The translations under genes were made by a program, and so were the position numbers. The notes under the pieces are model-generated. The model saw only the letters and a list, made by a program, of their open reading frames with translations, was not told the DNA's origin and searched no databases. A DNA stretch of 64,000 nt from Henningerozyma blattae CBS 6284 (lineage: Eukaryota; Ascomycota; Saccharomycetes; Saccharomycetales; Saccharomycetaceae): contig NC_020191.1 of NCBI RefSeq assembly GCF_000315915.1, positions 310,001-374,000 of the forward strand, given 5' to 3'. Shown here piece by piece: positions 5,494 to 45,788 of the stretch; the stretch's first letter is position 1, and the number at the start of each line of letters is the position of its first letter.

Positions 5494-5501
5494 TCACGTG
5501 A
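5494..5501 (-). promoter_or_regulatory. RTCACGTG element downstream of tRNA-Ile
   Basis: TCACGTGA, preceded by A on the tRNA strand, starts 26 bp beyond the 3' end of tRNA-Ile, past its T-run terminator. It matches the Cbf1/CDEI-type consensus and is one of six such sites at tRNA genes in this window. Confidence 0.7.
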
Positions 5502-5527
5502 TTTGAATTCATTGATCAAAAATCTAA

Positions 5528-5601
5528 TGGTTCCTAGCGGGATCGAACCGCTGATCCCCGCGTTATTAGCACGATGCCTTAACCAACTGGGCCAAGGAAC
5601 C
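5528..5601 (-). tRNA. tRNA-Ile (anticodon AAT)
   Basis: A 74-nt cloverleaf with discriminator A. The acceptor stem GGTTCCT pairs with AGGAACC, the anticodon loop is CTAATAA (AAT) and the T-loop is TTCGATC. No intron. The minus-strand 3' flank has the TTTTT terminator. Upstream are a TATATC box and a CAAGAAACA initiator-like sequence. In the 5' direction it is followed after 54 bp by solo LTRs. Confidence 0.97.
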
Positions 5602-5655
5602 ACTGTTTCTTGAATTTTGATATAAACCAACTTAGAAGTACAATACACTTAAATA

Positions 5656-6076
5656 GTAATACGAGACTGGCAGGACAACGATGGTATTTCAGAGTTCGGA
5701 TGGTACTGAGACCAGTAGTTACAGGTTGTATTACACAAGATTATTGTATCTCCCCTTGGTCCTTCTCTATATAGTATATAATAGTATATTGATCTATACA
5801 TGCTCTTTATATACTTCTTTAGAGCTGGACAGTTCTGGGTCCATAGTTACAAGATGCGGTACATTCATTGAAACCTGGGTGTCATTCTTACTAATAGGTT
5901 TCCGAGATGAACCAGAAGTGGGTGAAGATTCAGTGGTTACAGTTGATGTTCCACGCCTGTTGAATAGATGTTTCTCAGCTGTGGTCAGATGATCTGTCCT
6001 TTCTCGAGGCTTCTCTTGTACCGATTTCTTGTAAGTATTACATGAAAGGCGACAGCGCTTAGACGGTTTTACAACA
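5656..6076 (+). mobile_element. Solo LTR, family B, copy 1 (5' terminus lost)
   Basis: Nearly identical to the complete family-B LTR at 8079-8503, but the first few bases (TGTT) are missing and the element starts at GTAATACGAG. It ends in TTTTACAACA. The TGTTGTA...TACAACA termini resemble the sigma LTR of Ty3. Long open frames on both strands (103 and about 100 codons) exist because the copy is little decayed. They match no protein I recognise and are not called as genes. Separated by ATTAATTT from the family-A LTR that follows. Confidence 0.8.
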
Positions 6077-6084
6077 ATTAATTT

Positions 6085-6506
6085 TGTTGTAGACATATGC
6101 TAACCAATCAAAAGTAATGTTCTCAAGTTTAGGCTTTAAGCAAACGATCACGTAATCCGATGACTACGAGTCATACAATCGTACAGTCGTGCGTTCATAC
6201 AATTATATGACTATGAGTCATAATATCATGCAATTGTGCAATTGCTTGACAAGTTAATAAACTAATATTCAGGATAAATAGTTCTATTTGAAAACGTATA
6301 AATAGGGCTACTTATCCATCAAGAATTCATAAGTTTATAGCTCGTTCATATTAATTTTATAGTTATAAGAAGAACAAGTTATTTTTTAAGTACAAGTGGT
6401 ACTTTAGCTTTTAGTGTAAAAGTCCAATAACTCAAGAATAGTTCAGGTTTGTGTAAACCCTAAGCCCTTATAGTATTATTAGTATTGTCGCGAGACGATT
6501 ACAACA
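6085..6506 (+). mobile_element. Solo LTR, family A, copy 1, with 5-bp target duplication
   Basis: A 422-bp element running from TGTTGTAGAC to GATTACAACA, flanked by the direct repeat AATTT at 6080-6084 and 6507-6511. This is the signature of an integrated LTR reduced to a solo copy. A TATAAATAG box at 6297-6305 marks the likely U3/R promoter and gives the orientation. The termini and the tRNA association are those of Ty3/gypsy LTRs. A second copy of the same length lies inverted at 26635-27056. Confidence 0.9.
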
Positions 6507-6511
6507 AATTT

Positions 6512-7171
6512 TTTGAAATAACGTTCTATTGATATTCTCAAGTTATTTCTGTGTTATATGCAAGCTTTAGAAAGTGTGGAACTATATCTAGTTCGTAGTA
6601 CTTATTAAAATAGATTTTAATATATATTTCAGTTAAAATTAATTTTATTATGTAAGAAATATGTTAATAAAATTAGCATATATTTACAGAATTTAAGAAA
6701 ATGTTGGATCTTTATGGTAATAACTGTTCTTATAATTGTCTTCCTCCAGCTAAATACGTATATAAAACTACAGGAGTATATATAAACGAGCATTATTTAT
6801 ATTCTGAGAAATGCAGGTTGTATAAAAATATCACTTAGTACGTAATATTTTACGCTCAACAGAAAACTAATTCATTTTACATCTTGAAAACTACTTATCC
6901 AGATACCTGACACTCTTAAGTTTCAGTAGGATCCACTATAAAAAAAATAATAAATTTGAACATATTATTGAATCAAAATAATTTTATGTTTGGGATGTTA
7001 ATTTATACTGAGGAATGAGTTAATTGATAATTGAGATTAAAAACATTTGGAAATGAACTAAACAATAATTATAAATTAATAGTATCAATAAACTAATAAA
7101 CTTTTTATGTTAAATATTGAATTAGGAGTCAAATACTACGGACTAAATAATGCTTTAATACAAACTGAATT
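6512..7171. other. AT-rich intergenic region, no gene seen
   Basis: No coding frame, tRNA or recognisable repeat beyond the flanking LTR elements. The sequence is AT-rich and stop-dense. Confidence 0.5.
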
Positions 7172-7720
7172 TCTTGGAATATAAAAATATTAATGATTAG
7201 TATTACTAATGATAACAAGCCTTTGTGCTGTTGTAACAGCTACTACTTTAAGAACAATTTGAAAGTATAAAATTGCAGGTAGTGGTAGATATTCATGGTC
7301 TTTATACCTACAACAGTTGATATACTGGTTTAGGATAAAAGATAGTATAATGTGAATATACGTTGCTAATAGAAACCTCAATTAGAAAATTCGTTGTCGT
7401 TAATTAAAGTACATCATGTAGCTTATACAGGATATATTAAGCATGAGAGGCACATAACTCTTGTGAGGTTAATTAGGTGAAAAACGTTCACTTATAGACG
7501 ACGATGAAATGACTTCTCTTGTCCAAAAAATAATGTATAAATTGTCAGGTATAAATTGCCAGCATTTTAGTTGACATCTAATCTCTATATTTTTATATAT
7601 TTTCTATAATTTTAATACCTACTCAAAAGGGTAGGAGGTTTCTATACTTTATAACAATCAGTAAAAAAGAAAAGAATTATTATCTAAATTATGACTAACC
7701 GCAATATTAAGGATTCTAAT
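7172..7720. repeat. Dispersed repeat D, copy 1 (degenerate LTR-like)
   Basis: This roughly 550-bp stretch aligns over most of its length with 44436-44965. Shared blocks include GTGAATATACGTTG, TTCTCTTGTCCAAAAA, GACATCTAATCT and GGTTTCTAT. The left end TCTTGGAATATAAA recalls the TGTTGGAATA start of Ty1-type LTRs, but no clean termini or target duplication are visible. Both copies lie upstream of a plus-strand tRNA gene, here tRNA-Pro at 8519. I infer an old solo LTR of a Ty1/copia-type element. Confidence 0.6.
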
Positions 7721-8078
7721 GTCGTACACATAGGTCTAATGAAAGTTGGATTACCACCTATTTGAGTGCATAAAGCCACAGCTTTTACTTAAAAGAGCAG
7801 GAAGTTTGTATAATATAATAATTCAGCTTCTAATATCGGTGAATTTGCATTACTCGAGAAAAAAAAAAAAATCCAAGTCATACTTTTATTATGGCAGAAT
7901 AAGTACCATACTGGTGCTGACACATGTAATGGTATGCAAAACTAAAAGTCGAATGATGCAAGAATTTGTATGACATTTTATATATATAACATAGGAGAGA
8001 GGAGAGGAGTTTATACGAACCTATAATATATTGCATGTAGCGAGAGACAAAGTCTTCTACAGGTTTGCACAGGAAAAT

Positions 8079-8503
8079 TGTTGTAATACGAGACTGGCAG
8101 GACAACAATGGTATTTCAGAGTTCGGATGGTACTGAGACCAGTAGTTACAGGTTGTATTACACAAGATTATTGTATCTCCCCTTGGTCCTTCTCTATATA
8201 GTATATAATAGCATATTGATCTATAATTGCTCCTTATATACTTCTTTAGAGCTGGACAGTTCTGGGTCCATAGTTACAAGATGCGGTACATTCATTGAAA
8301 CCTGGGTGTCATTCTTACTAATAGGTTTCCGAGATGAACCAGAAGTGGGTGAAGATTCAGTGGTTACAGTTGATGTTCCACGCCTGTTGAATAGATGTTT
8401 CTCAGCTGTGGTCAGCTGATCTGTCCTTTCTCGAGGCTTCTCTTGTACTGATTTCTTGTAAGTATTACATAAAAGGCGACGGCACTTAAATGGTTTTACA
8501 ACA
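8079..8503 (+). mobile_element. Solo LTR, family B, copy 3, complete with AAAAT duplication
   Basis: A 425-bp element from TGTTGTAATACG to TTTTACAACA, flanked by AAAAT at 8074-8078 and 8504-8508. Only 15 bp separate its end from the mature tRNA-Pro start at 8519, the position expected for Ty3-like integration at the Pol III start site. It is the intact reference for family B in this window. It shares only the terminal TGTTGTA/TACAACA with family A; the interior is different. Confidence 0.88.
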
Positions 8504-8518
8504 AAAATCAAGAAAAAA

Positions 8519-8607
8519 GGGCGTGTGGTCTAGTGGTATGATTCTCGCTTTGGGTTACTACAACACGAATATGCGAGAGGCCCTGGGTTCAATTCCCAGC
8601 TCGCCCC
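8519..8607 (+). tRNA. tRNA-Pro (anticodon TGG), with intron
   Basis: Exon 1 ends in the anticodon loop TTTGGG and exon 2 resumes with TGCGAGAGG. The intron is 17 nt at 8555-8571, one base 3' of the anticodon. The acceptor GGGCGTG pairs with CTCGCCC, with the T6-T67 mismatch also found in yeast tRNA-Pro; the discriminator is C. TTTTT follows at once. It is the only tRNA gene here without a CACGTG motif 23-29 bp downstream. A family-B LTR abuts the 5' flank. Confidence 0.96.
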
Positions 8608-8613
8608 TTTTTA

Positions 8614-9223
8614 ATTTTTTGGTGTAACAATTTTATGCTTTGCTAATTCCAGTAGTATATCTTTTTGGCTGCTAGTTTAATACCAACTGTTTATTAAACT
8701 ATACAACTATATACCTGAGCCTATGTAAGTTAAATATTATTATTATTAGGTTCCAATTTGTCCACTATACACTTCCATCTTTTGTATTTCGTTCTTTTTG
8801 TTCTACCTTAACCCTCTAGTTTATTTCTTTTAGCTTTAGATTCTTAAATAGAATTTATGTTCATGATTCACTTGTTAATCTACATGTTCATTCCGTTATC
8901 ACGTGATACTGATATATACACGTGACTAACGTAGCCCACACTATGTGACAATTTTTTTTTTTGCAAAAAATGCGGGGTAAAACTCCCCAAAAAGGCAAAG
9001 ACTTGCCAAGGATAATACCGATTAGAAGAAGAGCAGTAAACATTATACAAAAAAAAGTATTAAAATAATAGTAATGTAATAAAAATATATATAAATACGG
9101 AAGTAAAGGATATATAGATATATATATATATGAGTAGTGGTTAAAAAAAAGTATAGTCATGCGATGAAATGCAGGTTCATAAGCGTCGTTAATAAAAAGA
9201 GAGTGAGATGAGATGAGCTCTAT
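8614..9223. other. Intergenic region between tRNA-Pro and TMA10
   Basis: No gene seen. Two CACGTG motifs occur at about 8899-8904 and 8922-8927, some 290-320 bp beyond tRNA-Pro, too far to fit the spacing seen at the other tRNA genes. The right end is the 3' flank of the minus-strand TMA10-like gene and has AT-rich microsatellite sequence. Confidence 0.5.
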
Positions 9224-11554: not shown

Positions 11555-14500
11555 ATGAACATACGGAATCTCTATTATTGTTTAAATATCCTATTCCTTA
11601 TAAACCATGTTACTGCAAACGCAACTGATCCAACTACAATTCAAAATCTCATACAATCCGAACAGAAAAGTTTGAACATAATCGATCAAGATACACAAGA
11701 TACGTTCACGCCAATAGTACAACCATCTACTTCAACTATAGAATTTGATCAGCCGACTTCGAATATACAAGATGAGCAAACAACTTCCACTTCACAAATA
11801 GATCAATTGACTACTACACAACCTCAACAAGGAACTTCCACCACACAAGGTCGACCCGCCACCACTAATACATTTGTTGGCCAAACTACTTCAAACACAC
11901 AAGTTGAGAAAACGACTTCAAGTTCGCAACTCGTACAAGCTACTTCAAATACACAGGCACCACAGACTACCTCGACTCCAGTTCTACAAACCACTTCAAG
12001 CACCCAAGCGGAACAAGCCACTTCAAATGCACAAGCAGAACAGGCCACCTCAACTCCAATTGCTGATCAAACCACTTCTACCCCAATTGCTGATCAAACC
12101 ACTTCAACTCCAATTGCTGATCAAACCACTTCTACCCCAATTGCTGATCAAACCACTTCAACTCCAGTTGCTGATCAAACCACCTCAACTCCAATTGCTG
12201 ACCAAACCACTTCAACTCCAGTTGCTGACCAAACTACTTCTACCCCAATTGCTGATCAAACCACCTCAACTCCAGTTGCTGATCAAACCACTTCAACTCC
12301 AGTTGCTGACCAAACTACTTCTACTCCAATTGCTGATCAAACCACCTCAACTCCAATTGCTGATCAAACCACTTCAACTCCAGTTGCTGACCAAACCACT
12401 TCCACCCCAATTGCTGACCAAACCACCTCAAACACAATACCTCAACTTACATCTGATACCCAAATTCAGCAGACTACTTCAAATGCAGTTGATGAGACTA
12501 CCTCCAACACACAAGTCGAACAAACTACTTCAATCATACCTGATCCAACTACCTCAACTCCTGCTGAAATGATTACTTCAACCCCAATTGATAAGCAAAC
12601 CACTTCAACCCCAGTTATTGATCAAACAACTTCAAACACTTTTTCTGATCAAACTACTTCAAACTTGGTTGTTGAACAAACTACTTCAAGTCCTATTTAT
12701 CAGCAATTCACCTCAAATACATTTGAGCAAACTACTTCAATTCCAGATGAGCAAACTATATCAACCTTAGCTCAACAAACTACATCGAGCCCACAACAAG
12801 AGCAAACCACCTCTAATATCCTTGATCAAAATACACTTGAACAGAGTACTTCAAACCAATTTGTTGCACAAACCACCTTCAACACATTTAAGCCAACTAC
12901 CTCAAACTCAGATTTTGAACAACATACTTCTAATTTACAACCTATTCAAAGTATTTCTAGTACAATTAAACAGACTGCTCCTAGTACCCAAACTACTTCT
13001 AACACACAATTATCTCAGCAGATTACTTCTAACCAATTCACACAAGAAATTACATCTAGTTCTCCACCAATTGAACAAAGTACATCCAGTACGGATGTCA
13101 TTCAACAAACAATTCCTAGCACTACTAGTCTAATTTTTTCTAGTACAGATGAAGTACAAATAATTATATCTAGTGATAGTGTAATCGAACAAGTTATTTC
13201 AAGCACTCAAGCTGTGGAACAAGGATCTTCTAACTCTCTAGTATTTGACCAAACTACTTCGATGACTCAAATCGTAGAGCAAGTTACATCTAGTACACCA
13301 GAATTTATTCAAACTACTTCAAATACTCAAGTACTGGAGCAAGTCACCTCTAGTATACCACCTCAACTTATTACTTCTGATTCTCAAAACCAACCAGTTA
13401 CTTCTAGTACTCCTATTATTGAACAAGTTATCTCTAACATCCCAACTTTTGATCAAACTACTTCGAGCATTCAAAATAGTGAACTACTAACCTCTAATAG
13501 CCTTGCTCTTGAGCAAACTACTTCGAGTGTTCAAATTGATGAACAAGTCATTTCTAGTTCTCAAACTTTTGTTCAGACTACTTTTAGTGTCCAAGCAAGT
13601 ATACAATCGTCATTTAATAGCTTAACAATTGATCAATCTTCTTCGAATACCCAATATACAGAACAACTTATCTCTAGTTCTATTATTTCAACCGATGAAC
13701 AAACCATCTCTAACGGTCAGATACTCAGTCAAACTACTTCTACTTTCCAATTGAGTGAGTCACCTTCCTCTGATATCCCAATCTTTGATCAAACTACTTC
13801 TACTGGTACCACTAGCCAAGCCATATCTGAAATTCAAACTCCTGGGCAACCTTTTTCTAGTACACCCGCATTCAGCCAATATACCTCTAGTACTCCAGTT
13901 ATCAAACAATCTACCCAAAGTATATCGACCACATCTAGTCTTCAACTTATATCAACTAGTTCAAACACACAATTCACTCCTACTAGTTCCAGTAATGAAG
14001 ATTTCAATGGGCTTATTTTAAGTTCCAATACAGTTTCAACAATATCTAACTCTCAGAGTACCCCAATGATTACTAGTACATCTGAAATTTTACCAGTTTC
14101 AAGCATTGATATCTTGTCTAAAACTGCATCTACTAATACCAACATAGAATCATCCACCACAGATTTAAACTCTAATACTTTGCCTATATCTAATGGTGAA
14201 AGTTTACTAACTTCTTCTCTAACTTCTACTACGTTAGATATCTCTACAGCTTCTTCTATGAAAACTGTATCATCTACCACTCTTCCTATTGTTCTATCTT
14301 CTTCAGTTTCTGAATCACCAGCTGACGTTAGTTCAGCCAACTCCCCTTCGGAACTCAGCCAATCAGTTATGGAGCCAACTTTTAAATCGAGCACAGGCTC
14401 AATAGCTTTCATCTCTACAGACCAATCTTCATTCCCCTCAGAACACTGGTCATCTGAAAATACTTATAAATCATCCTTAGTTTCACAAGATAATATTGAA

Positions 14501-17032
14501 TCTACTGTGTCAAAAACAAGTGATCTTTTAGATTCAGTATCAACTTCTTCATCACCTACTTCTGTAATGGATCCTTCATTAAGCTCAAGCTATGGTTCCC
14601 TATCTGAAAGTATTGTAATTTCAGAAACTTCCGCCAGCGTCTCATCAACTTTGCCATCACAAGAACAAATTTCCAACATTCTACCAACTTCCTCAACATT
14701 GTTATCAACCACTTCTATAGACTCCTCTTCTGAAGAATCTATTGAAAGTACTTCATCTTCCATTCTATCCGTTTCTGCAATTTATTCATCAAATACTGTT
14801 ACAGAATCACAAGCTCTCTCAATTGATGAATCGTCTATTGAACACACACTATCTGAGTCATCTACCTCTGTTAGCATAGTACTATCTAATTCACCTTATT
14901 CATCTGGAAAGCTTTCCTCCAATTTAATAATACCAACTAGAAGTTACCTTTCTTCCGAGGCACAACACTCAGATCATTCTTTTACTACCAGCCAGATTAT
15001 GGAAAGTTCAACTAGAAGCTTTACTTCTAAAGCTATCTCATCACAGGATACTTTATCTACTAGTCTGACAAGTAGCAACCTTGCTCAAACTTATCAATCT
15101 TCTGAAATAACTTCAGAGGAATCTACCTCTACTAGCAAGATTATAGAAAGTTCAACTAGAAGCTACCAAACTTCTATTCTGACTTCATCACAGCACACGT
15201 TTTCTACCACTCAAACAAGCGGAAACTCCACCCAAACTCAAGACCCTTCTGAAGTGAATTCTAAAGAGCATACCTCATCTACTAATTACATCACAACAAG
15301 CTCAATTAGTAAGCCGCAAACTTCCATTCTGATCTCATCAGAGCATACATTTTCTACCACTAAAACTAGTGGAAACTCGACTAGAACTTCTCTCCCATCT
15401 GAATTGATTTTACCGGAACACACTTCTTCTACTAATCAAGCTATTGAAAGTTCAACCAAGCCACAGACCTATTCCTCACTTATTTCACCTAGCTTTACAT
15501 CGATTTCTAGCGAATCACATAAGTTCCGTTCTGAGCAGTCGACTTCTTCTGTCAATTATATTACTTCTTCTACTACATCAGAACTTGTATCTCCAATTAG
15601 TTCTCATTCTATTCATTCTACTACAACAAAAATTTCTGAAAGTGATTTTACTAACTCTAAATTTTCTTCTACTTCAAAAAGCTTTTCAGAAAAAACTTTG
15701 TCAACTTCTGAATTAACGTCACCATCCCCAGAGTCCTTTACTGAAACCTCTGTCACTGAAATCTCAAGCAACAAATCACCAAACTCATCATACCATTCTG
15801 AAACGACCCCCCCAGTTGTTCAAAGTAGCAAACCAAAAACTATTGTTCCAACTTCATCTATTAAATCTACTATTGAACCTAATTCAGAAAGTAACTCCAA
15901 TGTGTTCACATCGTCTGTAGCTGAAACTTCACTTCCACCTTCTCAATTACTACCTTCAGATATCGAATCTTCAACTTTTACTTCATCTGAAATATATTTC
16001 ACTTCCTCAGCACCATCAAGTACAATTACTAGACAATCAAACTGGTGGATTCCTACTTCCTTAGCTGTTGCATCAACTATGAATTCCACCGATACTTCTA
16101 CATTACCAACCCAAGCAATTCCACAAGCAATTGGCTCAGTTGAGCAACCTCCAGCACCAGAAAATCACTCCTTAATCACCATTGGTTTTAAAAAAGAATT
16201 AAATTATGAATTTGTTGTATCTCATCCAATGTCAGGAGCTCAGATTATAAATTATTTACCAAACACTCTAGTTAATGCATTTTTTGGTAATGTGACAAAC
16301 ATATCAGTTAACAACTTGGTGCCATATAATGATACGAAATCTGATTATTTAATTACAATTGCTACAGTTTACTTCCCCACTGATGAAATTAAACATTTGC
16401 GCGAATTAATTCACGATAAATCAAGCAGTTTTTATACTGCAAGCCAAGATGTTGCAAGACAATTAGCTAACTTAGTTGATCCATCAATTCCTTTAACTGG
16501 CCTAAATCTCTTCGGTAACAGTGACGATACCAATAATAATAACCCATACTCTCCAGATAATTCAAATTCTGAAGGTATCGGTACTTTGGATGTTTCACCA
16601 ATTAACAAAGTAAGTGTCCTGAAAAATAATTCTGGTGCATTAAACACCAAGGGTAAAGTTACAGGCTTAATAATTGGTGTAGTTATTGGCGGTTGTTGTC
16701 TCATTGCTTTATCTATCTTCTCTATTGGTCATTTCATTATGAAACGTCATAATGCTAACGTCACTGAAGAAACAAATATTGTGGACCATTTCAATTTTAC
16801 TAAAAAAAGTAATATTAGCACTCTTCATAGCAATTTAACAGAAAAATTTTCAAGGAGATCTCATAATTTTGATGATCCAAATGAAAGAATCAATAGTTGG
16901 ATGGATAACAATTATTTTGGTGACGTAGAAGATACCTATACTGGGACTGCAGAAATTGGTATGAGAGCCAAAGGATTAAAAATATCTCACCCAATCGCAA
17001 GCGAAAATTCACTGGGTTGGAATATTGTCTAA
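11555..17032 (+). CDS. MSB2: Msb2-type signalling mucin, osmosensor
   Basis: Msb2 is a cell-surface mucin that feeds the Cdc42-dependent Ste11 branch of the HOG and filamentous-growth MAPK pathways. The 1825-residue product has a signal peptide (about 1-21, core YCLNILFLINHVTA). A very long Ser/Thr-rich extracellular mucin region follows, and then a conserved membrane-proximal domain (about 1537-1650; LITIGFKKELNYEF, VYFPTDEI, VDPSIPLTGL) that matches the Msb2/Hkr1 regulatory domain. A single transmembrane segment spans about 1703-1725 and the cytoplasmic tail is about 100 residues. The mucin region includes 14 tandem copies of a 9-residue unit (12047-12424). The protein is longer than S. cerevisiae Msb2 (about 1300), as expected for a repeat-expanding mucin. 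Neighbouring YGR016W preserves the S. cerevisiae order and separates this gene from HKR1. Confidence 0.93.
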   Translation: MNIRNLYYCLNILFLINHVTANATDPTTIQNLIQSEQKSLNIIDQDTQDTFTPIVQPSTSTIEFDQPTSNIQDEQTTSTSQIDQLTTTQPQQGTSTTQGRPATTNTFVGQTTSNTQVEKTTSSSQLVQATSNTQAPQTTSTPVLQTTSSTQAEQATSNAQAEQATSTPIADQTTSTPIADQTTSTPIADQTTSTPIADQTTSTPVADQTTSTPIADQTTSTPVADQTTSTPIADQTTSTPVADQTTSTPVADQTTSTPIADQTTSTPIADQTTSTPVADQTTSTPIADQTTSNTIPQLTSDTQIQQTTSNAVDETTSNTQVEQTTSIIPDPTTSTPAEMITSTPIDKQTTSTPVIDQTTSNTFSDQTTSNLVVEQTTSSPIYQQFTSNTFEQTTSIPDEQTISTLAQQTTSSPQQEQTTSNILDQNTLEQSTSNQFVAQTTFNTFKPTTSNSDFEQHTSNLQPIQSISSTIKQTAPSTQTTSNTQLSQQITSNQFTQEITSSSPPIEQSTSSTDVIQQTIPSTTSLIFSSTDEVQIIISSDSVIEQVISSTQAVEQGSSNSLVFDQTTSMTQIVEQVTSSTPEFIQTTSNTQVLEQVTSSIPPQLITSDSQNQPVTSSTPIIEQVISNIPTFDQTTSSIQNSELLTSNSLALEQTTSSVQIDEQVISSSQTFVQTTFSVQASIQSSFNSLTIDQSSSNTQYTEQLISSSIISTDEQTISNGQILSQTTSTFQLSESPSSDIPIFDQTTSTGTTSQAISEIQTPGQPFSSTPAFSQYTSSTPVIKQSTQSISTTSSLQLISTSSNTQFTPTSSSNEDFNGLILSSNTVSTISNSQSTPMITSTSEILPVSSIDILSKTASTNTNIESSTTDLNSNTLPISNGESLLTSSLTSTTLDISTASSMKTVSSTTLPIVLSSSVSESPADVSSANSPSELSQSVMEPTFKSSTGSIAFISTDQSSFPSEHWSSENTYKSSLVSQDNIESTVSKTSDLLDSVSTSSSPTSVMDPSLSSSYGSLSESIVISETSASVSSTLPSQEQISNILPTSSTLLSTTSIDSSSEESIESTSSSILSVSAIYSSNTVTESQALSIDESSIEHTLSESSTSVSIVLSNSPYSSGKLSSNLIIPTRSYLSSEAQHSDHSFTTSQIMESSTRSFTSKAISSQDTLSTSLTSSNLAQTYQSSEITSEESTSTSKIIESSTRSYQTSILTSSQHTFSTTQTSGNSTQTQDPSEVNSKEHTSSTNYITTSSISKPQTSILISSEHTFSTTKTSGNSTRTSLPSELILPEHTSSTNQAIESSTKPQTYSSLISPSFTSISSESHKFRSEQSTSSVNYITSSTTSELVSPISSHSIHSTTTKISESDFTNSKFSSTSKSFSEKTLSTSELTSPSPESFTETSVTEISSNKSPNSSYHSETTPPVVQSSKPKTIVPTSSIKSTIEPNSESNSNVFTSSVAETSLPPSQLLPSDIESSTFTSSEIYFTSSAPSSTITRQSNWWIPTSLAVASTMNSTDTSTLPTQAIPQAIGSVEQPPAPENHSLITIGFKKELNYEFVVSHPMSGAQIINYLPNTLVNAFFGNVTNISVNNLVPYNDTKSDYLITIATVYFPTDEIKHLRELIHDKSSSFYTASQDVARQLANLVDPSIPLTGLNLFGNSDDTNNNNPYSPDNSNSEGIGTLDVSPINKVSVLKNNSGALNTKGKVTGLIIGVVIGGCCLIALSIFSIGHFIMKRHNANVTEETNIVDHFNFTKKSNISTLHSNLTEKFSRRSHNFDDPNERINSWMDNNYFGDVEDTYTGTAEIGMRAKGLKISHPIASENSLGWNIV
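12047..12424 (+). repeat. 14 tandem 27-bp repeats in MSB2
   Basis: Fourteen consecutive units encode TSTP(I/V)ADQT in frame. Ile and Val alternate irregularly at the fifth position, and synonymous changes are scattered among units. Unit homogeneity suggests recent unequal exchange. Copy number probably varies between strains. Confidence 0.95.
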
Positions 17033-18429: not shown

Positions 18430-18509
18430 ATAGGTAAATATATATATAAATTGTTTTATTCGGTCAACTATATTGCACGAATATAAAACCAAGCACTGAT
18501 AATTAAATA

Positions 18510-18517
18510 TCACGTGA
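18510..18517 (-). promoter_or_regulatory. RTCACGTG element downstream of tRNA-Val
   Basis: TCACGTGA, read as GTCACGTGATAT on the tRNA strand, begins 23 bp beyond the tRNA-Val 3' end and its T6 terminator. Confidence 0.7.
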
Positions 18518-18540
18518 CAATGATAAATTCTTCCAAAAAA

Positions 18541-18614
18541 TGATTTCGCCCAGGATCGAACTGGGGACGTTCTGCGTGTTAAGCAGATGCCATAACCAAC
18601 TAGACCACGAAACC
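18541..18614 (-). tRNA. tRNA-Val (anticodon AAC)
   Basis: A 74-nt cloverleaf on the minus strand. The acceptor GGTTTCG pairs with CGAAATC (one G-T pair), the anticodon stem-loop is TCTGC TTAACAC GCAGA, the T-loop is TTCGATC and the discriminator is A. No intron. The 3' flank contains TTTTTT. Upstream are TATATAATAG and CAAGAAA, typical Pol III start signals. Confidence 0.97.
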
Positions 18615-19939
18615 ATATATTTCTTGTTTTCTATTATATAGTGATCTGGTGAGTATTTTACAGATGACTATAACCCAGCATCACTATGTCACAAAGTTTT
18701 CGAATTAATATAGAGTTATAAAGCGAATCAAATAAGGAAAGCAAAAAAGGGAAAAACCTTCACTTTTTGCTTCATTGGGTAAACGATAACCCCAGAGCCT
18801 TTGTAGGAACAGTTCTAAACCAATTACTCGTTGGATCCGATTACTGAACAAGCAAAGATTTGCTGACATGATGGTCCTGAAACTGTTTTACCATAACCAC
18901 AGGATGAAACTTATCGACTAGCCCAATTAAAGATGACGCAATCGATCGCCCAAATTAAAAACAATAAAAATACACTCAAACACTAGAGCCGGGTTTCATA
19001 TAGGCACTATTATTGCCACAACACTTCTCCCCTAAGGTGGAGGGTTTCAAGATCATGGCCTATTTGTGACGCGTGCCAGGCACTTCCGGATCATTTCTCC
19101 AGGAACCTTTAGTTCTAGGGAGGTCACGTTGCTCCCATTACGGGTAACTACCTAATCTGACCACTTAAATCAGATTCCAAAAAAAGAAAATATGAGAAAT
19201 GTTCTATAAATAGCGAACTTGCCTGCTTCGCCAATTTTCGCGATATGCTTGAATCTGGAAATAACAAAACAAAGCTCATCACAACGGACCCAATCGGTAT
19301 GTCCAATTTCAGATAAAATGACCAAAATGGAAAATGGCGAAAGTGAAAAAAAATGAAAGAAAAGAACTATTCGGGAATGAACAGCCATTCATTCTTGTTG
19401 TAAACACCAGCATAATCAGCTATTAAACATCAATATCTGGGCAAAATCGGATAAATCAAGTTTCATTCAAGTAAAATAATTCCCTCCATTCGGTAACAAA
19501 AGGAAAGGTTGGCGTAGAAGTATGTTTGCTCTGACACGTTAAGTGAAACAACTTTCTTTTTTTATTTTTAATTTTTTTATGTTATTTTCAAATTTTCGTT
19601 GGCTTCCATTTTATATCAACAAAGGTCATACATATCGAGACGTATTCCAGTATTTGTTGTTGGCTATGAAATAATATTATATTATACTTCAAGGAGTTTG
19701 TTATTATACAAGACTATGCTTAAAGTTTAGACCAACTATATCTTCAATTCTTCTTTTATTGAATATAGCTAGGCCATTAAACATATATTTTGCACATACA
19801 ACAGATTATAATAAGATACCATAATACAGTTATACATTAAACAAACAAACAATATATTATCATAGTTTTCTAACTAAAGTCATTCGTTCGCTCAAGAATA
19901 TATATACCATAAAACATACCCAATCCATTTCTTTTCCAA
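18615..19939. other. Long upstream region of MID2/MTL1
   Basis: No supported gene. The part from about 18990 to 19165 is GC-richer, with small inverted repeats (GTGCC A GGCAC near 19071, CTCC/GGAG near 19030), one CCCCT core, and a Reb1-type site CGGGTAA at about 19141-19147. It could hold an unrecognised small RNA or a dense regulatory region for the downstream sensor gene. Confidence 0.45.
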
Positions 19940-23060: not shown

Positions 23061-23132
23061 TCCCCGATAGTTTAATGGTTAGAATGGGCGCTTGTCGCGT
23101 GCCAGATCGGGGTTCAATTCCCCGTCGAGGAG
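23061..23132 (+). tRNA. tRNA-Asp (anticodon GTC), acceptor mismatch
   Basis: A 72-nt cloverleaf with anticodon loop TTGTCGC, T-loop TTCAATT and discriminator G. The body matches yeast tRNA-Asp. The acceptor stem TCCCCGA faces TCGAGGA, which leaves C4 opposite A69 unpaired. No intron. TTTTTTTT follows at 23137. S. cerevisiae also has a tRNA-Asp gene between MID2 and RPS25B, as far as I recall. Confidence 0.94.
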
Positions 23133-23159
23133 ATGATTTTTTTTGGAAAATTATTGAGA

Positions 23160-23167
23160 TCACGTGG
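23160..23167 (+). promoter_or_regulatory. RTCACGTG element downstream of tRNA-Asp
   Basis: ATCACGTGG begins 27 bp after the tRNA-Asp 3' end, past the T8 terminator. Confidence 0.7.
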
Positions 23168-26491: not shown

Positions 26492-26499
26492 GCACGTGA
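26492..26499 (-). promoter_or_regulatory. RTCACGTG element downstream of second tRNA-Pro
   Basis: On the tRNA strand the sequence is GTCACGTGCC. It begins 29 bp past the 3' end of tRNA-Pro, beyond its TTTTCTTTTTT terminator. Confidence 0.7.
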
Positions 26500-26528
26500 C
26501 TTCAACCAAATATTTTTAAAAAAGAAAA

Positions 26529-26616
26529 GGGGCGAGCTGGGAATTGAACCCAGGGCCTCTCGCATATTTGTGTCGAACAACCCAAAGCGAGAATCATACC
26601 ACTAGACCACACGCCC
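26529..26616 (-). tRNA. tRNA-Pro (anticodon TGG), with intron
   Basis: The exons are identical in sequence to the tRNA-Pro at 8519 (GGGCGTGTGG..., TGCGAGAGG..., CTCGCCC plus C). The intron is 16 nt at 26565-26580 and unrelated to that of the other copy apart from size. It lies divergent to tRNA-Glu 1.3 kb away, with three solo LTRs stacked in between; the nearest starts 18 bp from its 5' end. Confidence 0.96.
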
Positions 26617-27907: not shown

Positions 27908-27924
27908 AAAACATCAAATAATAA

Positions 27925-27996
27925 TCCGATATAGTGTAACGGCTATCACATCACGCTTTCACCGTGGAGACCGGGGTTCGACTCCCCGTATCGGAG
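27925..27996 (+). tRNA. tRNA-Glu (anticodon TTC)
   Basis: A 72-nt cloverleaf with acceptor TCCGATA/TATCGGA, anticodon loop CTTTCAC, T-loop TTCGACT and discriminator G. No intron. TTTTT follows at 28003. It lies upstream of NUP2. From memory, S. cerevisiae has a tRNA-Glu(UUC) gene and an LTR (the dubious ORF YLR334C) in the same RPS25B-NUP2 interval, so this is probably an ancestral tRNA position. Confidence 0.97.
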
Positions 27997-28023
27997 CATT
28001 TCTTTTTGCAACTCACGTCTATA

Positions 28024-28031
28024 TCACGTGA
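28024..28031 (+). promoter_or_regulatory. RTCACGTG element downstream of tRNA-Glu
   Basis: ATCACGTGACC begins 27 bp after the tRNA-Glu 3' end, beyond the TTTTT terminator. The same ten-base context occurs after tRNA-Arg. Confidence 0.7.
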
Positions 28032-34621: not shown

Positions 34622-36769
34622 TTATTTATAATTTTGTAAATCTAATGGAACACTACTGCCTTTACCACTTGGGTATAATTTTTTCTTACCATTAAACATT
34701 CTTGGTTTAGGTAATTGAGAGACATTGGACCATTTGAATCTTGAATCGTCTATATGTAATTTACCCTTTTTCAATCCGAAAGCTGAGTTTCCTATTGTAA
34801 TGTCGGATTGGGAATGAGATTTATTAGAGCCATGTGAGAATAAACGTTGTTTTAAATTGTGAGAGTTTGTTGTAGGAGAAGGTGTTTGTGAAGTTGGTGA
34901 TAGAGGGGAAGAAAGAGGAGGTGAAGTTGTTGGAGGTGCTGGTGCAGAAGGAGGTTTTGAAGTATGCATTGGAAGAGCATGAATTGGAGGAGCAGCCGAT
35001 GGTAAAGGAGGAGCGGCCGATGGTAAAGGAGGAGCGGCCGATGGTAAAGGAGGAGCAGCCGATGGTAAAGGAGGAGACGGCCGATGGTAAAGGAGGAGAC
35101 AGTCGATGGTAAAGATGGAAGGAGGAGGAGGAGGGGTGGATATAGCGGGTGGTTGATATGGAGTTGGTGCAGTATGAGGTATTGATGGTGCAGAGTGTGG
35201 TACAGATGGTGCAGCACCTGGCAATGGAGGTGCTTTAGTTGGTAGGAGGGGGCCAGCTGGGGCCGCGTGTGGTAGGGACGGAGCAGCATGTGGTAGGGAG
35301 GGGGCAGCTGGAGCAGCATGTGGTAGGGAGGGGGCAGCTGGCGCAGCATGTGGTAGGGACGGAGCAGCATGTGGTAGGGACGGAGCAGCATGTGGTAGGG
35401 ACGGAGCAGCATGTGGTAAAGGAGGGGTCGAAGTTGGCAAAGAGGGTAAACCAGAGGGAGAACCGTGATGCTTTAATCTCGATTGAATCTCATCAAACAT
35501 AGAGTTGCCTGTTGATGCAGGAGCGGATGGGTTTTTTGGAGCAGCAGGGGTGGCGGTTGGAGCAGACACACTTGATTGAGATTGTGTGGTGGAATATTTT
35601 GAGTTTGAATCGACCACAAATCTATCATCTCTTTTCCTTTGGATTTCAGCCAAGAATGGTAGTGGACCACCAGCAGATGGAGCCGAGGGTGCCGAGTGGA
35701 TGGAAGTTGGAGGAGCCGAGGGGAGTGTCATTGCAGGAGCAGGAGGGGGTGGAGCAGGTGCGGCAGGGAGTGACATTGTAGGAGGTGGAGGTGGAGGTGG
35801 GGGAGGGAGGAATGAAGATTTTTGAGGTCTAGCAGAAGGAGCCGAGGGGGCTGACAGGGTAGGTGGTGGGGGAGGGGCGGATGGGGCAGCAGGAGGGGCG
35901 GAGGGAGAAGCACGGAGGGAGGAGGATGGAGCGCGGAGGGAGGAGGATGGAGAGCGAGTNNNNNNNNNNNNNNNNNNATCGACTACACCTTTATCGGATC
36001 TCTTTGCGTTGATTTCGGATAGGAAGGGGAGGCCAGAGGGCGGCTGTGGTGCTTGAGATGGGGCAGGGGGAGGAGCAGGCACTGACATTGCCGGTGGAGC
36101 TGGTGGAGCTGGAGGAGCGGGAGGCGCGGGAGGGAGAGTGGAAGATTTTGGACGAGCCGATGGCACGGCGGGGGCCGACAATGTTGGCGGAGCTCCTGTG
36201 GGTAGAGGAGGCGGAGCCGCCAGGCCCAGGGAACTGGAGGAGTTTCTCATTGCGGTGGGAGAGTTCCTATTGATGCTAGACGGACTATTGCCTGGTCTCG
36301 AGGATGGCATTGGTGGCGGAGTCGAGGTGGGTATTGAAGGCGCGGATAGAGAGGGGATTGCTGGGGCAGAGGGGGGGGATGGGGCGGAATTGCTTGGAAT
36401 TCTTCTTGCTGGTCTTGCTGAAGGTATTGATGGGGCACCCGAGGGTGGAGGAGGCGCGGAAGGTGCAGGACCGACGTGTTTGAGCTTTGGGAAGCCGCCA
36501 GCCAAGAGACCACCCAGCTGAGGGGCCGCGGAGGGCAACGAGGGCGCAGAGGGCGCGGAGGGCGCTCTTGGGGCAGCCGAGGCACCGGATGGACCCCCGG
36601 ACGACACTTTCGGAGCACTTCTATCGTCTGTGTGAGCTTTTTTCAACGCCATCCCCTTTCTGATATCACCCAGCAGGGCATCTCTGCCCTGCATGACGGA
36701 AGCGGCGGGTTTTGGCGCTGAGGCAACGCCCAATGCTGGAGGAGGAGGAGGTGGAGGAGGAGGGGGCAT
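34622..36769 (-). CDS. VRP1: Verprolin (WIP family)
   Basis: Vrp1 binds actin monomers and the WASP homologue Las17 at cortical actin patches and is needed for endocytosis and polarity. The product (about 715 residues) begins with a polyproline run. A WH2 actin-binding motif follows at about residues 28-52 (GRDALLGDIRKGMALKKAH), then a very long Pro/Ala/Ser-rich region with many poly-Pro tracts for profilin, SH3 and type I myosin partners. The C-terminal Las17-binding block contains DDSRFKWSNVSQLPKPRMF. Tandem LPHAAPS units lie at about 35238-35420 and LPSAAPP units at about 34990-35075. Eighteen unknown bases (35960-35977) interrupt the sequence, so exact length is uncertain. The 5' half is very GC-rich. 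Synteny matches YLR337C. Confidence 0.93.
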   Translation of the reverse strand: MPPPPPPPPPPALGVASAPKPAASVMQGRDALLGDIRKGMALKKAHTDDRSAPKVSSGGPSGASAAPRAPSAPSAPSLPSAAPQLGGLLAGGFPKLKHVGPAPSAPPPPSGAPSIPSARPARRIPSNSAPSPPSAPAIPSLSAPSIPTSTPPPMPSSRPGNSPSSINRNSPTAMRNSSSSLGLAAPPPLPTGAPPTLSAPAVPSARPKSSTLPPAPPAPPAPPAPPAMSVPAPPPAPSQAPQPPSGLPFLSEINAKRSDKGVVDXXXXXXTRSPSSSLRAPSSSLRASPSAPPAAPSAPPPPPTLSAPSAPSARPQKSSFLPPPPPPPPPTMSLPAAPAPPPPAPAMTLPSAPPTSIHSAPSAPSAGGPLPFLAEIQRKRDDRFVVDSNSKYSTTQSQSSVSAPTATPAAPKNPSAPASTGNSMFDEIQSRLKHHGSPSGLPSLPTSTPPLPHAAPSLPHAAPSLPHAAPSLPHAAPAAPSLPHAAPAAPSLPHAAPSLPHAAPAGPLLPTKAPPLPGAAPSVPHSAPSIPHTAPTPYQPPAISTPPPPPSIFTIDCLLLYHRPSPPLPSAAPPLPSAAPPLPSAAPPLPSAAPPIHALPMHTSKPPSAPAPPTTSPPLSSPLSPTSQTPSPTTNSHNLKQRLFSHGSNKSHSQSDITIGNSAFGLKKGKLHIDDSRFKWSNVSQLPKPRMFNGKKKLYPSGKGSSVPLDLQNYK
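35960..35977. other. Assembly gap (18 N) inside VRP1
   Basis: A run of 18 unknown bases in the proline-rich repetitive part of VRP1, most likely an unresolved repeat. The flanking reading frame is continuous if the gap size is right. Confidence 0.97.
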
Positions 36770-38412: not shown

Positions 38413-38430
38413 GACTCCCGCTCGTATCAA

Positions 38431-41400: not shown

Positions 41401-43956
41401 ATGGAAAACGCTGAATTCTTATTAAGAGCTTATCCAGATTTACAAATTGCTTATTTAGATGAAGAACCTCCATTAAATGAAAATGAAGAACCAATCGTTT
41501 ATTCTGCTTTAATCGATGGTCATTGTGATATTATGGAAAATGGTAGAAGACGTCCCAAATATAGAATCCAATTGTCAGGTAATCCAATCTTGGGTGATGG
41601 TAAATCAGATAATCAAAATCATGCCATCATCTTTTATAGAGGTGAATATATTCAATTGATTGATGCTAATCAAGATAATTATTTGGAAGAATGTTTGAAA
41701 ATTAGATCTGTCTTGGCTGAATTCGAAGAATTAAATGTAGATTATATCAATCCTTATTCTCCAGAGGTTAGATACGAAGATCAAAATAATAATTATCCAG
41801 TGGCTATTGTTGGTGCTAGAGAATATATTTTCTCTGAAAATTCAGGTGTTTTAGGTGATGTTGCTGCTGGTAAAGAACAAACTTTTGGTACTCTTTTCGC
41901 TCGTACTTTATCTCAAATTGGTGGTAAATTACATTACGGTCATCCGGATTTTATTAATGCTACTTTTATGACTACAAGAGGTGGTGTTTCTAAAGCTCAA
42001 AAGGGTTTACATTTAAATGAAGATATTTATGCAGGTATGAATGCCACTTTAAGAGGTGGTAGAATTAAACATTGTGAATATTATCAATGTGGTAAAGGTA
42101 GAGATTTAGGGTTTGGTACTATTTTGAATTTCAACACAAAGATTGGTGCCGGTATGGGTGAGCAAATGTTATCTCGTGAATATTATTATTTAGGTACTCA
42201 ATTACCAATCGATCGTTTCTTATCATTCTACTATGCTCATCCTGGTTTCCATTTGAATAATTTGTTTATTCAATTATCTTTACAATTATTCATGTTGACT
42301 TTATTAAATATGAATGCATTGGCTCATGAATCTATTTTCTGTGATTATGATAGAAATAAACCAATTACTGATATATTATATCCAATCGGTTGTTACAATT
42401 TGTCTCCAGTAGTTGATTGGGTTAGACGTTACACTTTATCCATTTTCATTGTTTTCTTTATCGCTTTTGTTCCAATTATCGTTCAAGAATTGATTGAACG
42501 TGGGTTATGGAAAGCCACTCTAAGATTCTTCCGTCATTTACTATCTCTATCTCCAATGTTTGAAGTATTTGCAGGTCAAATCTATTCTTCTGCATTAATG
42601 ACTGACATGACTGTAGGTGGTGCTCGTTATATTTCTACTGGTAGAGGGTTTGCCACATCTCGTATTCCATTTTCAATTTTATACTCAAGATTTGCTAATT
42701 CAGCAATCTATATGGGTGCTAGATCGTTGTTAATGTTATTATTCAGTACGTGTGCTCATTGGCAAGCTCCATTATTATGGTTCTGGGCCTCTTTAGCCTC
42801 CTTATTATTATCACCATTCATCTTTAATCCACATCAATTCTCTTGGGAAGATTATTTCTTAGATTATAGAGATTTCATCAGATGGTTATCAAGAGGTAAT
42901 AGAAAATACCATAAAAACTCTTGGATTGGTTATATTAGAATGTCAAGATCTCGTGTTACTGGTTTCAAACGTAAATTAACTGGTGATGAATCTGAACAAG
43001 CTGCTGGTGATTCCAAAAGAGCTCGTAAGATTAATTTAGTCATTTCTGAATTCATCCCATTGATCGTATACTCTGCAGGTTGTTTTATGGCTTTCACTTT
43101 TATTAATGCTCAAACTGGTGTTCAAAATGCAACTAGAGTCAATTCTATTTTACGTGTATTGATTTGTACTTTTGCTCCAATTGCAGTTAATATGGGTGCA
43201 TTGCTATTCTGTGTCTGTGTTAGTCCATTAGCTGGCCGTTGTTGTAAACAAGGTGGTTCTGTTATGGCTGCTTTGGCTCATGGTACTTCAGTTATGGTTA
43301 ATTTGATTATGTTCATCGTCATGTGGGTTTTAGAAGGCTTCAATTGGCCAAGAATGTTATTAGGTATTGTTACTTGTATTCAATTCCAAAGATTAATTTA
43401 TCAAGGTATGTCTATTTTCTTATTAACAAGAGAATTGAAAAATGATAGATCCAACACGGCTTTCTGGACTGGTACTTGGGGTAGTAACCATTTAGGTGTC
43501 ACACAACCATTTAGAGAATATTTCGTTAAGATTATTGAATCTGCAGAATTTGCTGCTGATTTCACTTTAGGTCATATCATCATGTTTATCCAATTACCAG
43601 TTTTATGTATCCCATTCATTGATAAATTCCATTCTATGATGTTATTCTGGTTAAAACCATCAAGACAAATTCGTGCTCCAATTTACTCATTAAAGCAAAC
43701 AAGATTACGTAAGAGAATGGTTAGAAAGTATATGGTATTATACTTTATTGTATTCTGCTTAATAATGGCATGCTTTATTGGTCCTGCTGCTGCTTCAAGC
43801 CGTGTTACATTGCACATTAACGCAGGTGATCCAGGTGTATACCATAATCTTATTCAACCAAGAAACTTAAGTAATAATGATACTGGTTTATCTACATACT
43901 CCGGTCATTATTACACAGAAAAACCTTCTATGGAAATATGGTCTACCATTAAATAG
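38431..43956 (+). CDS. FKS1: 1,3-beta-D-glucan synthase catalytic subunit
   Basis: Fks proteins polymerise cell-wall 1,3-beta-glucan from UDP-glucose at the plasma membrane under Rho1 control and are the echinocandin target. The 1841-residue product is full length. It has a Tyr/Gln/Asn-rich cytoplasmic N-terminus, a conserved domain from about 125 ([20 protein letters not shown]), a first membrane block (about 425-680), a large cytoplasmic catalytic domain (about 690-1290, including [15 protein letters not shown] and [20 protein letters not shown]), and a second membrane block. The drug hot-spot segments read FLILSLRDP (594-602) and DWVRRYTL (1329-1336), close to wild-type fungal sequences. 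The ATG at 38431 is the first in frame. The gene stands for FKS1 or GSC2; downstream RPL26 fits both. Confidence 0.97.
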
Positions 43957-44435
43957 CCATAGATCATGATGTGAAAAAGGTAAACACATTACATTGAACT
44001 TTAACTTTGACTTTTTATTATTATCTATATATAAAATTTTTTTTTCTCAATTTTACTCATCATGCTCATCCCTTATCATTTTTTCATCTATATATATTTG
44101 ATGACTGTATATTATATTTGTGTGGGTTAGCTACATTCGGTCTATATAAAAAATTTTTTTAACTCTTAAATTTTGTTCAAAATCTGTTTTCTTTTTTTTA
44201 TTTTTTATTTTTTTTTAGATAAAAATCAAATAAAGACAATATATTTTAAATTTAAATAATAGGAATTTTCAAAAAAAAAAGTTTGTTTAACTTTGTAGTT
44301 TTATCAGAATGAATTTGACAAAGGGAAGAGAGGGACTGTATTTTACTTAATTAGTTTTGCTCCATAAACTTTTTAAAGGTTTTATAGATAAAATTGGTAC
44401 ATTGCGTAAAATAATCGTTACAATAATCTTAAAAA
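43957..44435. other. FKS 3' flank, AT-rich
   Basis: T-rich then A-rich noncoding DNA. No gene or repeat recognised. Confidence 0.45.
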
Positions 44436-44965
44436 ATAATGTATAAATATTTCATTAATAGAAAAGATAATAAAATAATCCTGACTTCACAAATCTAGTA
44501 AATACACTATACCAAACAGGTTTGGATACAAGGAATAATGCTTGTGCTAAATATTTATTGTCTTTACACATAAAGCGATAGGTATACTGTTCCAGGATAA
44601 AAGAGAATATAACGTGAATATACGTTGATAATAAAATCTCCAATTAGATAATTCCTTGTTGCCAAATGGAGTACATCCTGTAACCACTACAGGATATACT
44701 AAGCCTGGAAGCCAGGCATAACTTGTGAGGTTAATTAAGTGAAAAAACATTTTTATTTATAGACGATGATGAATTGATTTCTCTTGTCCAAAAACTAATT
44801 TATAAATTGCCAAGCCTTTATTAGACATCTAATCTTTGTATTTTATGTATTCTATATACTTTTTATTCCGATTCAAAAGGTTAGGAGGTTTCTATTTTTT
44901 TACTACTTAATAAAACCTCAATTATCCTTTTAAATTACGACAGACAATATTACCAATATAAATGA
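44436..44965. repeat. Dispersed repeat D, copy 2 (degenerate LTR-like)
   Basis: It aligns with 7172-7720 over most of its length, in the same orientation. It lies about 720-1250 bp upstream of tRNA-Arg, inside the zone where Ty1-type elements integrate. No clear termini or target duplication. I infer an old solo LTR. Confidence 0.6.
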
Positions 44966-45682
44966 TACTATTGTATAATTAATTGGTGTTATATAAATAG
45001 CAGTATCACTTGAATCCGACATTAGTATAGGGAATTAATTTTTTCTAGTTAATAATATGTTTTTAGCATAGCAATTTCCTACACGCCATACTCATGAACT
45101 TTTTGAATAATTTTTTTTATATATGCTCAAATTATTGAACAAAAACTAAAAAAATATTTAATTTTTAAAGGTCTAATAATTATCTTACTTTATATCGAAT
45201 CTTATTAGTGTGTTACATTAAGTTAACGTACACAATAATGTATAATATATTTCACATGTTTACATGATAGTTTCAAGGATTTTATATGTAGGAATAGATG
45301 ATGATTGAACAATAACAATGGAAGATGAACACAACTTTCAATACGAAAGATGATAGTGGAGTTGTGATATTTGCAAGCAATTACAATAGTTAAACTATAT
45401 ATTTCAAAAACTAAACTAAACCAAACCAAACCAAACCAAACAAATTAAATCCAATAAGTTACTTATATCAATAAGTTACTTATATCAATAAGAGACACCA
45501 AATGCTCCAATTTCCAGAAATAGTATATATATTTTTAAATAAAAATTGAAAAATAAGTTTAACCAATTTGTATTATATTTTAATAATAGTTCTTATACAT
45601 TTACCTAATGCATTGAGCTTAAAATAATAATGAATATAGTTGTCCTCTATAAGTTTACGTTAGTTTAAAAGTTTATAAATCC
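44966..45682. other. Upstream flank of tRNA-Arg
   Basis: AT-rich noncoding DNA. It contains a short AAACC pentamer tract (45410-45440) and a duplicated AATAAGTTACTTATATC segment (about 45464-45488), nothing else recognised. Confidence 0.45.
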
Positions 45683-45754
45683 GCCCCTTTAGTGCAATGG
45701 TTAGCATACATTTTTCCGGTGGATGTGATCCGGGTTCGAGTCCCGGGAGGGGCT
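45683..45754 (+). tRNA. tRNA-Arg (anticodon CCG)
   Basis: A 72-nt cloverleaf. The acceptor GCCCCTT pairs with GAGGGGC (T7-G66 wobble), the anticodon stem CATTT faces GGATG with two T-G pairs, the loop is TTCCGGT (CCG), the T-loop is TTCGAGT and the discriminator is T. No intron. TTTTT follows at 45760. As far as I recall S. cerevisiae has its single tRNA-Arg(CCG) gene next to RPL26A, so position is conserved. Confidence 0.93.
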
Positions 45755-45780
45755 ATGAATTTTTATCACATAGTCACTAA

Positions 45781-45788
45781 TCACGTGA
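45781..45788 (+). promoter_or_regulatory. RTCACGTG element downstream of tRNA-Arg
   Basis: ATCACGTGACC begins 26 bp after the tRNA-Arg 3' end, beyond its TTTTT terminator. Confidence 0.7.

Follow-up and report, generated by a model that had tools for sequence, protein, structure and literature searches.

tRNA genes and CACGTG sites in the window

The window analysed here, meaning the whole stretch of 64,000 nucleotides, is taken from contig NC_020191.1 of Henningerozyma blattae CBS 6284 (C7:310001-374000 in the contig:position form used below, out of a 14,041,469-base genome of 10 contigs), and the element in question is a CACGTG site placed shortly beyond the terminator of tRNA genes, which are transcribed by RNA polymerase III (Pol III). 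Seven tRNA genes lie in the window, as had been proposed in a sequence-only reading of the same DNA, and ARAGORN and Rfam together confirm this number: ARAGORN finds five, Rfam adds two intron-bearing tRNA-Pro genes, and ARAGORN with introns allowed recovers all seven, while tRNA-Val falls below the Rfam gathering score and was found by ARAGORN. The six CACGTG sites which that reading had linked to tRNA genes are present (starting at + strand coordinates 5495, 18511, 23161, 26493, 28025 and 45782), and all six have the form RTCACGTG in the sense of the tRNA, as it had stated. Its near-constant distance of 23-29 bp from the tRNA 3' end also stands, apart from the upper limit: the true range is 23-30, the value for tRNA-Pro being 30. 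The features are as follows, with runs of T written by their length (T5 for five T) and the spacing counted between T-run end and CACGTG.

5527-5602, minus strand: tRNA-Ile (AAT), found by ARAGORN and Rfam
5518-5522, minus strand: T5 run, terminator of tRNA-Ile
5495-5500, minus strand: CACGTG of tRNA-Ile, ATCACGTGAT in tRNA sense, spacing 17
18540-18615, minus strand: tRNA-Val (AAC), found by ARAGORN; its last base is perhaps part of the T-run
18535-18540, minus strand: T run, terminator of tRNA-Val, with 5 T beyond the ARAGORN gene end
18511-18516, minus strand: CACGTG of tRNA-Val, GTCACGTGAT, spacing 18
23061-23132, plus strand: tRNA-Asp (GTC), found by ARAGORN and Rfam
23137-23144, plus strand: T8 run, terminator of tRNA-Asp
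23161-23166, plus strand: CACGTG of tRNA-Asp, ATCACGTGGG, spacing 16
26529-26616, minus strand: tRNA-Pro (TGG) with intron, found by Rfam and by ARAGORN with introns allowed
26518-26523, minus strand: T6 run, terminator of tRNA-Pro 26529
26493-26498, minus strand: CACGTG of tRNA-Pro 26529, GTCACGTGCC, spacing 19
27925-27997, plus strand: tRNA-Glu (TTC), found by ARAGORN and Rfam
28003-28007, plus strand: T5 run, terminator of tRNA-Glu
28025-28030, plus strand: CACGTG of tRNA-Glu, ATCACGTGAC, spacing 17
45683-45754, plus strand: tRNA-Arg (CCG), found by ARAGORN and Rfam
45760-45764, plus strand: T5 run, terminator of tRNA-Arg
45782-45787, plus strand: CACGTG of tRNA-Arg, ATCACGTGAC, spacing 17
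8519-8607, plus strand: tRNA-Pro (TGG) with intron and no site near its end, found by Rfam and by ARAGORN with introns allowed
8608-8612 and 8615-8620, plus strand: T-runs of tRNA-Pro 8519
8623-8950, plus strand: repeat resembling a solo long terminal repeat (LTR; TGTAAC...GTGACA), starting 2 bases past the T-runs of tRNA-Pro 8519

CACGTG also occurs at 8900 and 8919, in both cases inside the LTR-like repeat that follows tRNA-Pro 8519. Over the whole window the hexamer was observed 12 times with 3.06 expected, and at least 12 copies were reached in none of 100 shuffles.

Genome-wide occurrence

A pattern consisting of the B box followed by CACGTG (GTTCRANNCN{28,58}CACGTG) gave 169 matches in the genome, compared with 2 for the reversed pattern. 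In the 100 matches listed, a T-run without an LTR tract in between is seen 79 times (not each was checked as a tRNA gene) and an LTR tract 14 times; the other 7 are without a T-run and apparently unrelated to Pol III. Scaling the 79 of 100 to all 169 matches, roughly 130 genes would carry the arrangement.

Its frequency was taken from a sample blind to the motif, consisting of tRNA genes identified by covariance model together with neighbouring tRNA genes in the same loci (L001-L030, L091-L123 and the window). After ten genes with a same-strand tRNA gene at most 40 bases downstream were set aside, 73 units remained, and 50 of these are free of a repeat after the gene (23 have one, three of them flagged by hand). 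CACGTG lies within 60 bases in 39 of the 50 repeat-free units, one of the 39 being a tRNA-Met (C10:101520) with CACGTG far out and a one-mismatch site at spacing 15; five of the 11 units lacking CACGTG have a one-mismatch site at spacing 17-19. The starts of CACGTG were also counted in 57 tRNA units, LTR-bearing ones included, that have flanks of 300 bases to either side: 29 lie at +20 to +39, four at +40 to +59, and none at +0 to +19 or within the first 140 bases upstream. Native sites, those not preceded by an LTR word, span 18 tRNA amino-acid types when motif-selected loci are included.

The sequence-only reading had argued that the placement exceeds chance, and both the 169 matches against 2 and the excess in the window bear this out. 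It had also named a downstream frequency equal to background as the outcome that would speak against it; the 29 starts at +20 to +39 against none at +0 to +19 are not such an outcome. The placement of the site at tRNA genes is genuine and genome-wide.

Spacing from the T-run

To which point the site is tied can be read from a pooled set of 117 unique native flanks, many of them selected for carrying CACGTG. Sites were scored as native only if no LTR word precedes them, and the spacing was counted from the end of the first run of at least five T or, where there is none, from the first T4 run. The spacing is 17 in 40 flanks, 18 in 27, 16 in 11 and 19 in 7, so that 67 of the 117 have 17 or 18 and 85 have 16-19; the remainder have 14-15 (4 flanks) or 20-44 (28 flanks). 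Its standard deviation (SD) is 3.48, compared with a mean of 7.00 when the T-run ends are permuted, and none of 20000 permutations gave 3.48 or less. Regression of site position on T-run end gave a slope of 0.97. The spacers form 75 clusters at 70% identity and the peak is unchanged across them, in agreement with the earlier argument that the copying of a single locus is insufficient.

The tRNA 3' end and the first base of the T-run were considered as alternative anchors and fit less well. In 76 unique flanks the site position varies least when counted from the T-run end (SD 2.77); with the start of the first T4 or longer run as reference the SD is 3.48, and with the tRNA end it is 5.43. A regression on two variables (n=112, spacing 14-24) gave coefficients of 1.06 for T-run start and 0.73 for T-run length (standard error 0.19), which places the anchor nearer to the end of the run than to its start. 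The reference point of the CACGTG site is thus the T-run end and not the tRNA.

A pattern that omits the tRNA altogether, TTTTTV...TCACGTG, has 125 genome matches at spacing 16-19, compared with 37 at 6-9 and 38 at 26-29, shifted spacings which themselves include some tRNA places. On C1-C3, 45 of the 59 matches at spacing 16-19 are also B-box matches. The other 14 were considered as possible new Pol III genes and rejected, their spacing being flat and background-like; only one of them stands out, by its position at SCR1. There, the match to the signal recognition particle RNA ends at C2:1946532 and is followed by a T5 run, starting at C2:1946556, that has CACGTG at spacing 19.

T-run length, near-sites and tandem genes

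In all 117 native flanks a run of T4-T8 lies between gene end and site, most often T5 (53 flanks) or T6 (33), followed by T7 (17), T4 (10) and T8 (4). Longer runs are found where the site is missing: in an exploratory contrast with small numbers and classes defined post hoc, the longest T-run reached at least 8 in 6 of 10 repeat-free genes having neither site nor near-site and in 4 of 45 genes having a site (Fisher p=0.0011). For this contrast the covariance-model set and the set listed by T5 were joined and the same 60-base window was used for both classes; the ten site-less genes include one flagged by hand as repeat-linked (C4:819465), and excluding it leaves 6 of 9. With near-site genes counted among those lacking a site, the mean longest run is 8.0 (n=15) compared with 5.8 in genes having one (n=45; p=0.002).

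Near-sites were sought in 21 genes, of which 19 have no CACGTG within 60 bases and no recognised LTR first and two were added by hand (C1:314019 and C10:101520). A one-mismatch TCACGTG is found at 7 of 101 positions at spacing 15-19 and at 1 of 1010 positions elsewhere. Between the genes of tandem pairs (Arg-Asp, Ala-Gly, Ser-Val and Gly-Cys) a site was found in none of 15 cases, where gaps of 1-16 bases leave hardly any room for one. After the last gene of these 15 pairs, three of which lie in motif-picked loci, nine have a native site, three have an LTR first and three have neither.

Two T5 genes without CACGTG, a tRNA-Pro (C1:1681098) and a tRNA-Trp (C1:2479095), have a short inverted repeat directly past the T-run (GTCTCGCTGAGAC and GTCAATCTTTGAC). 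Perhaps these inverted repeats are another aid to termination.

The site and its candidate binding protein

Alignment of 58 unique sites found via CACGTG gives the near-palindromic consensus RTCACGTGAY, with A/G in 97% at position -2, T in 86% at -1, A in 79% at +6 and T/C in 81% at +7. The consensus of Cbf1, or CDEI, is RTCACRTG, and the 58 sites are of this type. An RT flank is also frequent at CACGTG elsewhere in the examined loci (72% of half-sites at 83 non-tRNA sites, 34 LTR-like ones having been dropped), so that this flank is no distinguishing mark of the tRNA sites.

Eight basic helix-loop-helix (bHLH) domains were identified in the genome. One of them (P0003) is Cbf1, matching the Cbf1 chains in PDB with an E value of 1.6e-20, and another (P0001) is Tye7; the rest, judged by eye, are presumably a second Tye7-like domain (P0002), Pho4 (P0006), two Rtg3 (P0004 and P0007), Rtg1 (P0005) and Ino4 (P0008). 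Pho4 disfavours a T immediately before CACGTG, which leaves Cbf1 or Tye7 as the best fit. The CDEI-type site proposed in the sequence-only reading is therefore matched by both the RTCACGTG form and the presence of a Cbf1 gene, and the most likely predicted binder is Cbf1, Tye7 being the other candidate. Under names given mostly by eye, there are two Tye7-like (C6:380786 and C10:185692) and two Rtg3-like domains (C6:373787 and C9:178214), possibly duplicates retained since the whole-genome duplication.

Proposed role in Pol III termination

Taken together, most of the repeat-free tRNA genes sampled, and SCR1, probably end in a two-part Pol III terminator consisting of a short T-run and a Cbf1-like roadblock. 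The module would comprise a short T-run (usually 5-6 T), 17-18 bases and then the near-palindromic RTCACGTGAY, at which a bHLH dimer, most likely Cbf1, would sit as a roadblock and hold Pol III where its active site lies over the T-run. While the polymerase is held in this way, a short and otherwise leaky T-run could suffice for release of the RNA, and the roadblock would also stop those polymerases that leak past the run. Binding by Cbf1, the halt of the polymerase at the site and the dependence of termination on the site are what we infer from this arrangement. A bHLH dimer covers a few bases outside CACGTG, and the gap left between T-run and protein would be about 12-14 bases; a polymerase extends roughly as far in front of its active site, so that the geometry would fit a terminator. 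Among the four roles listed without a choice in the sequence-only reading (boundary, roadblock terminator, reinitiation aid and Ty-integration modulator), the roadblock terminator is favoured because of the anchoring to the T-run end, the longer T-runs of site-less genes and the site at SCR1.

Several observations weigh against such a terminator. Near SNR6 and RPR1 no T5-TCACGTG match at spacing 16-19 was found in a list covering their contigs, and a pattern of the conserved U6 end followed by CACGTG had no match. The control with an A-run in place of the T-run (AAAAAB...TCACGTG) gave 126 matches, a number no lower than that of the T-run pattern; on C1-C3, 47 of its 66 matches have the exact length of 30 and the other 19 are spread over three spacings, and most of the matches are ascribed here to copies of an LTR repeat (one copy was visible and they were not checked one by one). 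The A-run pattern is a poor control, and the shifted T-run spacings given above took its place. The contrast in T-run length carries the exploratory character described above, and an earlier version with unequal windows was weaker (p 0.03-0.11); two of the seven near-sites come from the hand-added genes. Finally, in vitro, T7 polymerase was only weakly blocked by Cbf1 (PMC9371891), and a peptide nucleic acid (PNA) roadblock past the terminator cut Pol III reinitiation (PMC11346459), from which it follows that a roadblock in this place could also cost output.

In a wider claim, for which the balance is about even, Pol III termination would have been rebuilt genome-wide in one yeast lineage into a protein-assisted, Pol I-style two-part terminator. 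A Cbf1-type roadblock at the fixed spacing of 17-18 would have allowed T-runs to shrink to T5-T6, with long ones kept mainly where the site is missing, and termination, perhaps together with recycling, would have become dependent on a sequence-specific transcription factor and open to regulation through it. For comparison, primary terminators of S. cerevisiae are mostly T6 and T7, and there pausing at T6 is incomplete, T9 or more blocks elongation, and pausing as well as release increases as the run gets longer (PMC9278858). Read-through drops with T length (PMC5356446), and in S. cerevisiae the length of the U-tract and U frequency are the only features of the 3' flank consistently correlated with it (PMC4937561); this suggests that S. 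cerevisiae does not use the arrangement generally.

Alternative explanations

Since the LTR of this genome itself bears CACGTG pairs, which sit at one end of the repeat, and adjoins T-runs, the sites might be relics of such an element or marks of its integration. Many site-less tRNA genes do precede a TG...CA-ended repeat, in either orientation, starting shortly past the T-run: an LTR tract is present in 14 of the 100 listed B-box matches, and, relative to the end of the T-run, 10 of 16 recognised first LTR ends lie at -1 to +10 and the remaining six at +18 to +30. Copies downstream of tRNA T-runs include, in both orientations, those at C3:753251 (L010), C1:359319 (L033) and C5:817447 (L021). 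Ty1 and Ty3 of S. cerevisiae favour the upstream side of tRNA genes. The flanks of native sites are varied, and no LTR sequence surrounds them. Among 13 split loci in which both LTR ends were found by pattern (lengths about 294-405 bases, with a 5-base target duplication seen in 3), four have a site past the LTR, at empty-site positions +25, +27, +27 and +39. Sites at such native-like distances predate the insertion. Of the other nine, two have CACGTG at +76 and +85 and seven, including tRNA-Pro 8519, have none within 90 bases. An LTR insertion has thus parted T-run and site in at least some loci, and likely did so at tRNA-Pro 8519, the exception in the window. An origin of the sites from Ty or LTR sequence was rejected on two grounds, the lack of an LTR word before native sites and the four split loci, and any retrotransposon trace is very improbable. 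Weaker still, to the point of being negligible, is an origin by chance or by copying of a few tRNA loci and their flanks. Some flanks are indeed copies, e.g. of tRNA-Gly on C2, but 169 matches against 2 in the control, 75 spacer clusters with a single peak and 18 amino-acid types are not explained in this way.

A chromatin or transcription boundary takes the same protein as its starting point: Cbf1, as a general regulatory factor, would hold the tRNA gene open at its 3' edge or shield that edge from incoming Pol II, and the spacing would mark the nearest place free of Pol III. Such a steric limit also gives a sharp lower bound, in line with spacings below 16 in only 4 of 117 flanks, and Cbf1 shields centromeres against Pol II (PMC9371891). 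A boundary alone, however, predicts neither the longer T-runs of site-less genes nor the peak at 17-18, a broad range past the minimum being expected, and it is considered unlikely. More doubtful again is a regulatory or recycling element, at which a bHLH factor would tune tRNA output or aid Pol III reinitiation, for example as a link to sulphur or carbon metabolism. The genome has genes for two candidate factors, Cbf1 and Tye7, and the human DNA-binding protein NF1 is reported to influence both the accuracy of Pol III termination and repeated transcription rounds; NF1 is an unrelated protein, and is not known to have a genome-wide site at a fixed spacing. Regulation by itself needs no fixed distance to the T-run, and for recycling the lowered reinitiation caused by the PNA roadblock (PMC11346459) points the other way.

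Relation to known terminators

The two-part terminator proposed here resembles that of yeast Pol I, where the roadblock is Nsi1, bound 12-20 nucleotides 3' of T1, a T-rich stop (PMC7618708). In both cases a T-rich release element would be followed by a DNA-bound roadblock at a fixed short distance, here mostly 16-19 bases past the T-run (85 of 117 flanks). The differences are that the polymerase is Pol III, that the site is a bHLH site (E-box) and not the Myb-type site of the Reb1-type protein Nsi1, that it is repeated at many genes, namely tRNA genes and SCR1 instead of a Pol I gene, and that Pol I additionally uses Rnt1 cleavage and the Rat1 torpedo. By this analogy, the arrangement would work like a Pol I roadblock terminator without being a member of that class.

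With the canonical Pol III terminator it shares the T4-T8 run just past the gene. The helpers described for Pol III termination are RNA structure and Sen1, and a positioned protein site after the T-run does not appear in the model as described there (PMC9278858). Cbf1 is a roadblock at yeast centromeres, where it stops the polymerase (PMC9371891), and the site there is likewise of the RTCACGTG type, Cbf1 being predicted from sequence in the present case; at centromeres it shields from Pol II, whereas here it would finish Pol III genes. In the in vitro work of Guffanti 2004 the PNA roadblock is likewise an obstacle beyond a Pol III terminator; it differs in being artificial and in reducing reinitiation (PMC11346459). 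No description of a positioned Pol III element of this kind was found in the literature searched, a coverage outside which most subscription journals lie.

Pol III is the textbook example of termination on a T-run, RNA structure and Sen1 being its known helpers; if the proposal is true, termination at a roadblock, a process already familiar from Pol I and Pol II, extends to Pol III. The genome would then offer a natural series of terminators varying in T length and site quality, in which the backup of weak Pol III terminators is directly testable.

Other features of the window

At 593-1100 the C/D box small nucleolar RNAs snR57, snR55 and snR61 lie in a row (Rfam). An open reading frame at 34622-36769 encodes 715 amino acids and is proline-rich; unread bases in the window show up as a few consecutive X in the translated sequence. 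Another, at 11555-17032, encodes 1825 amino acids and is rich in Ser/Thr, with short repeats of the TTSTPIADQ type and a membrane-like stretch near its end, as judged by eye, and looks like a cell-surface protein.

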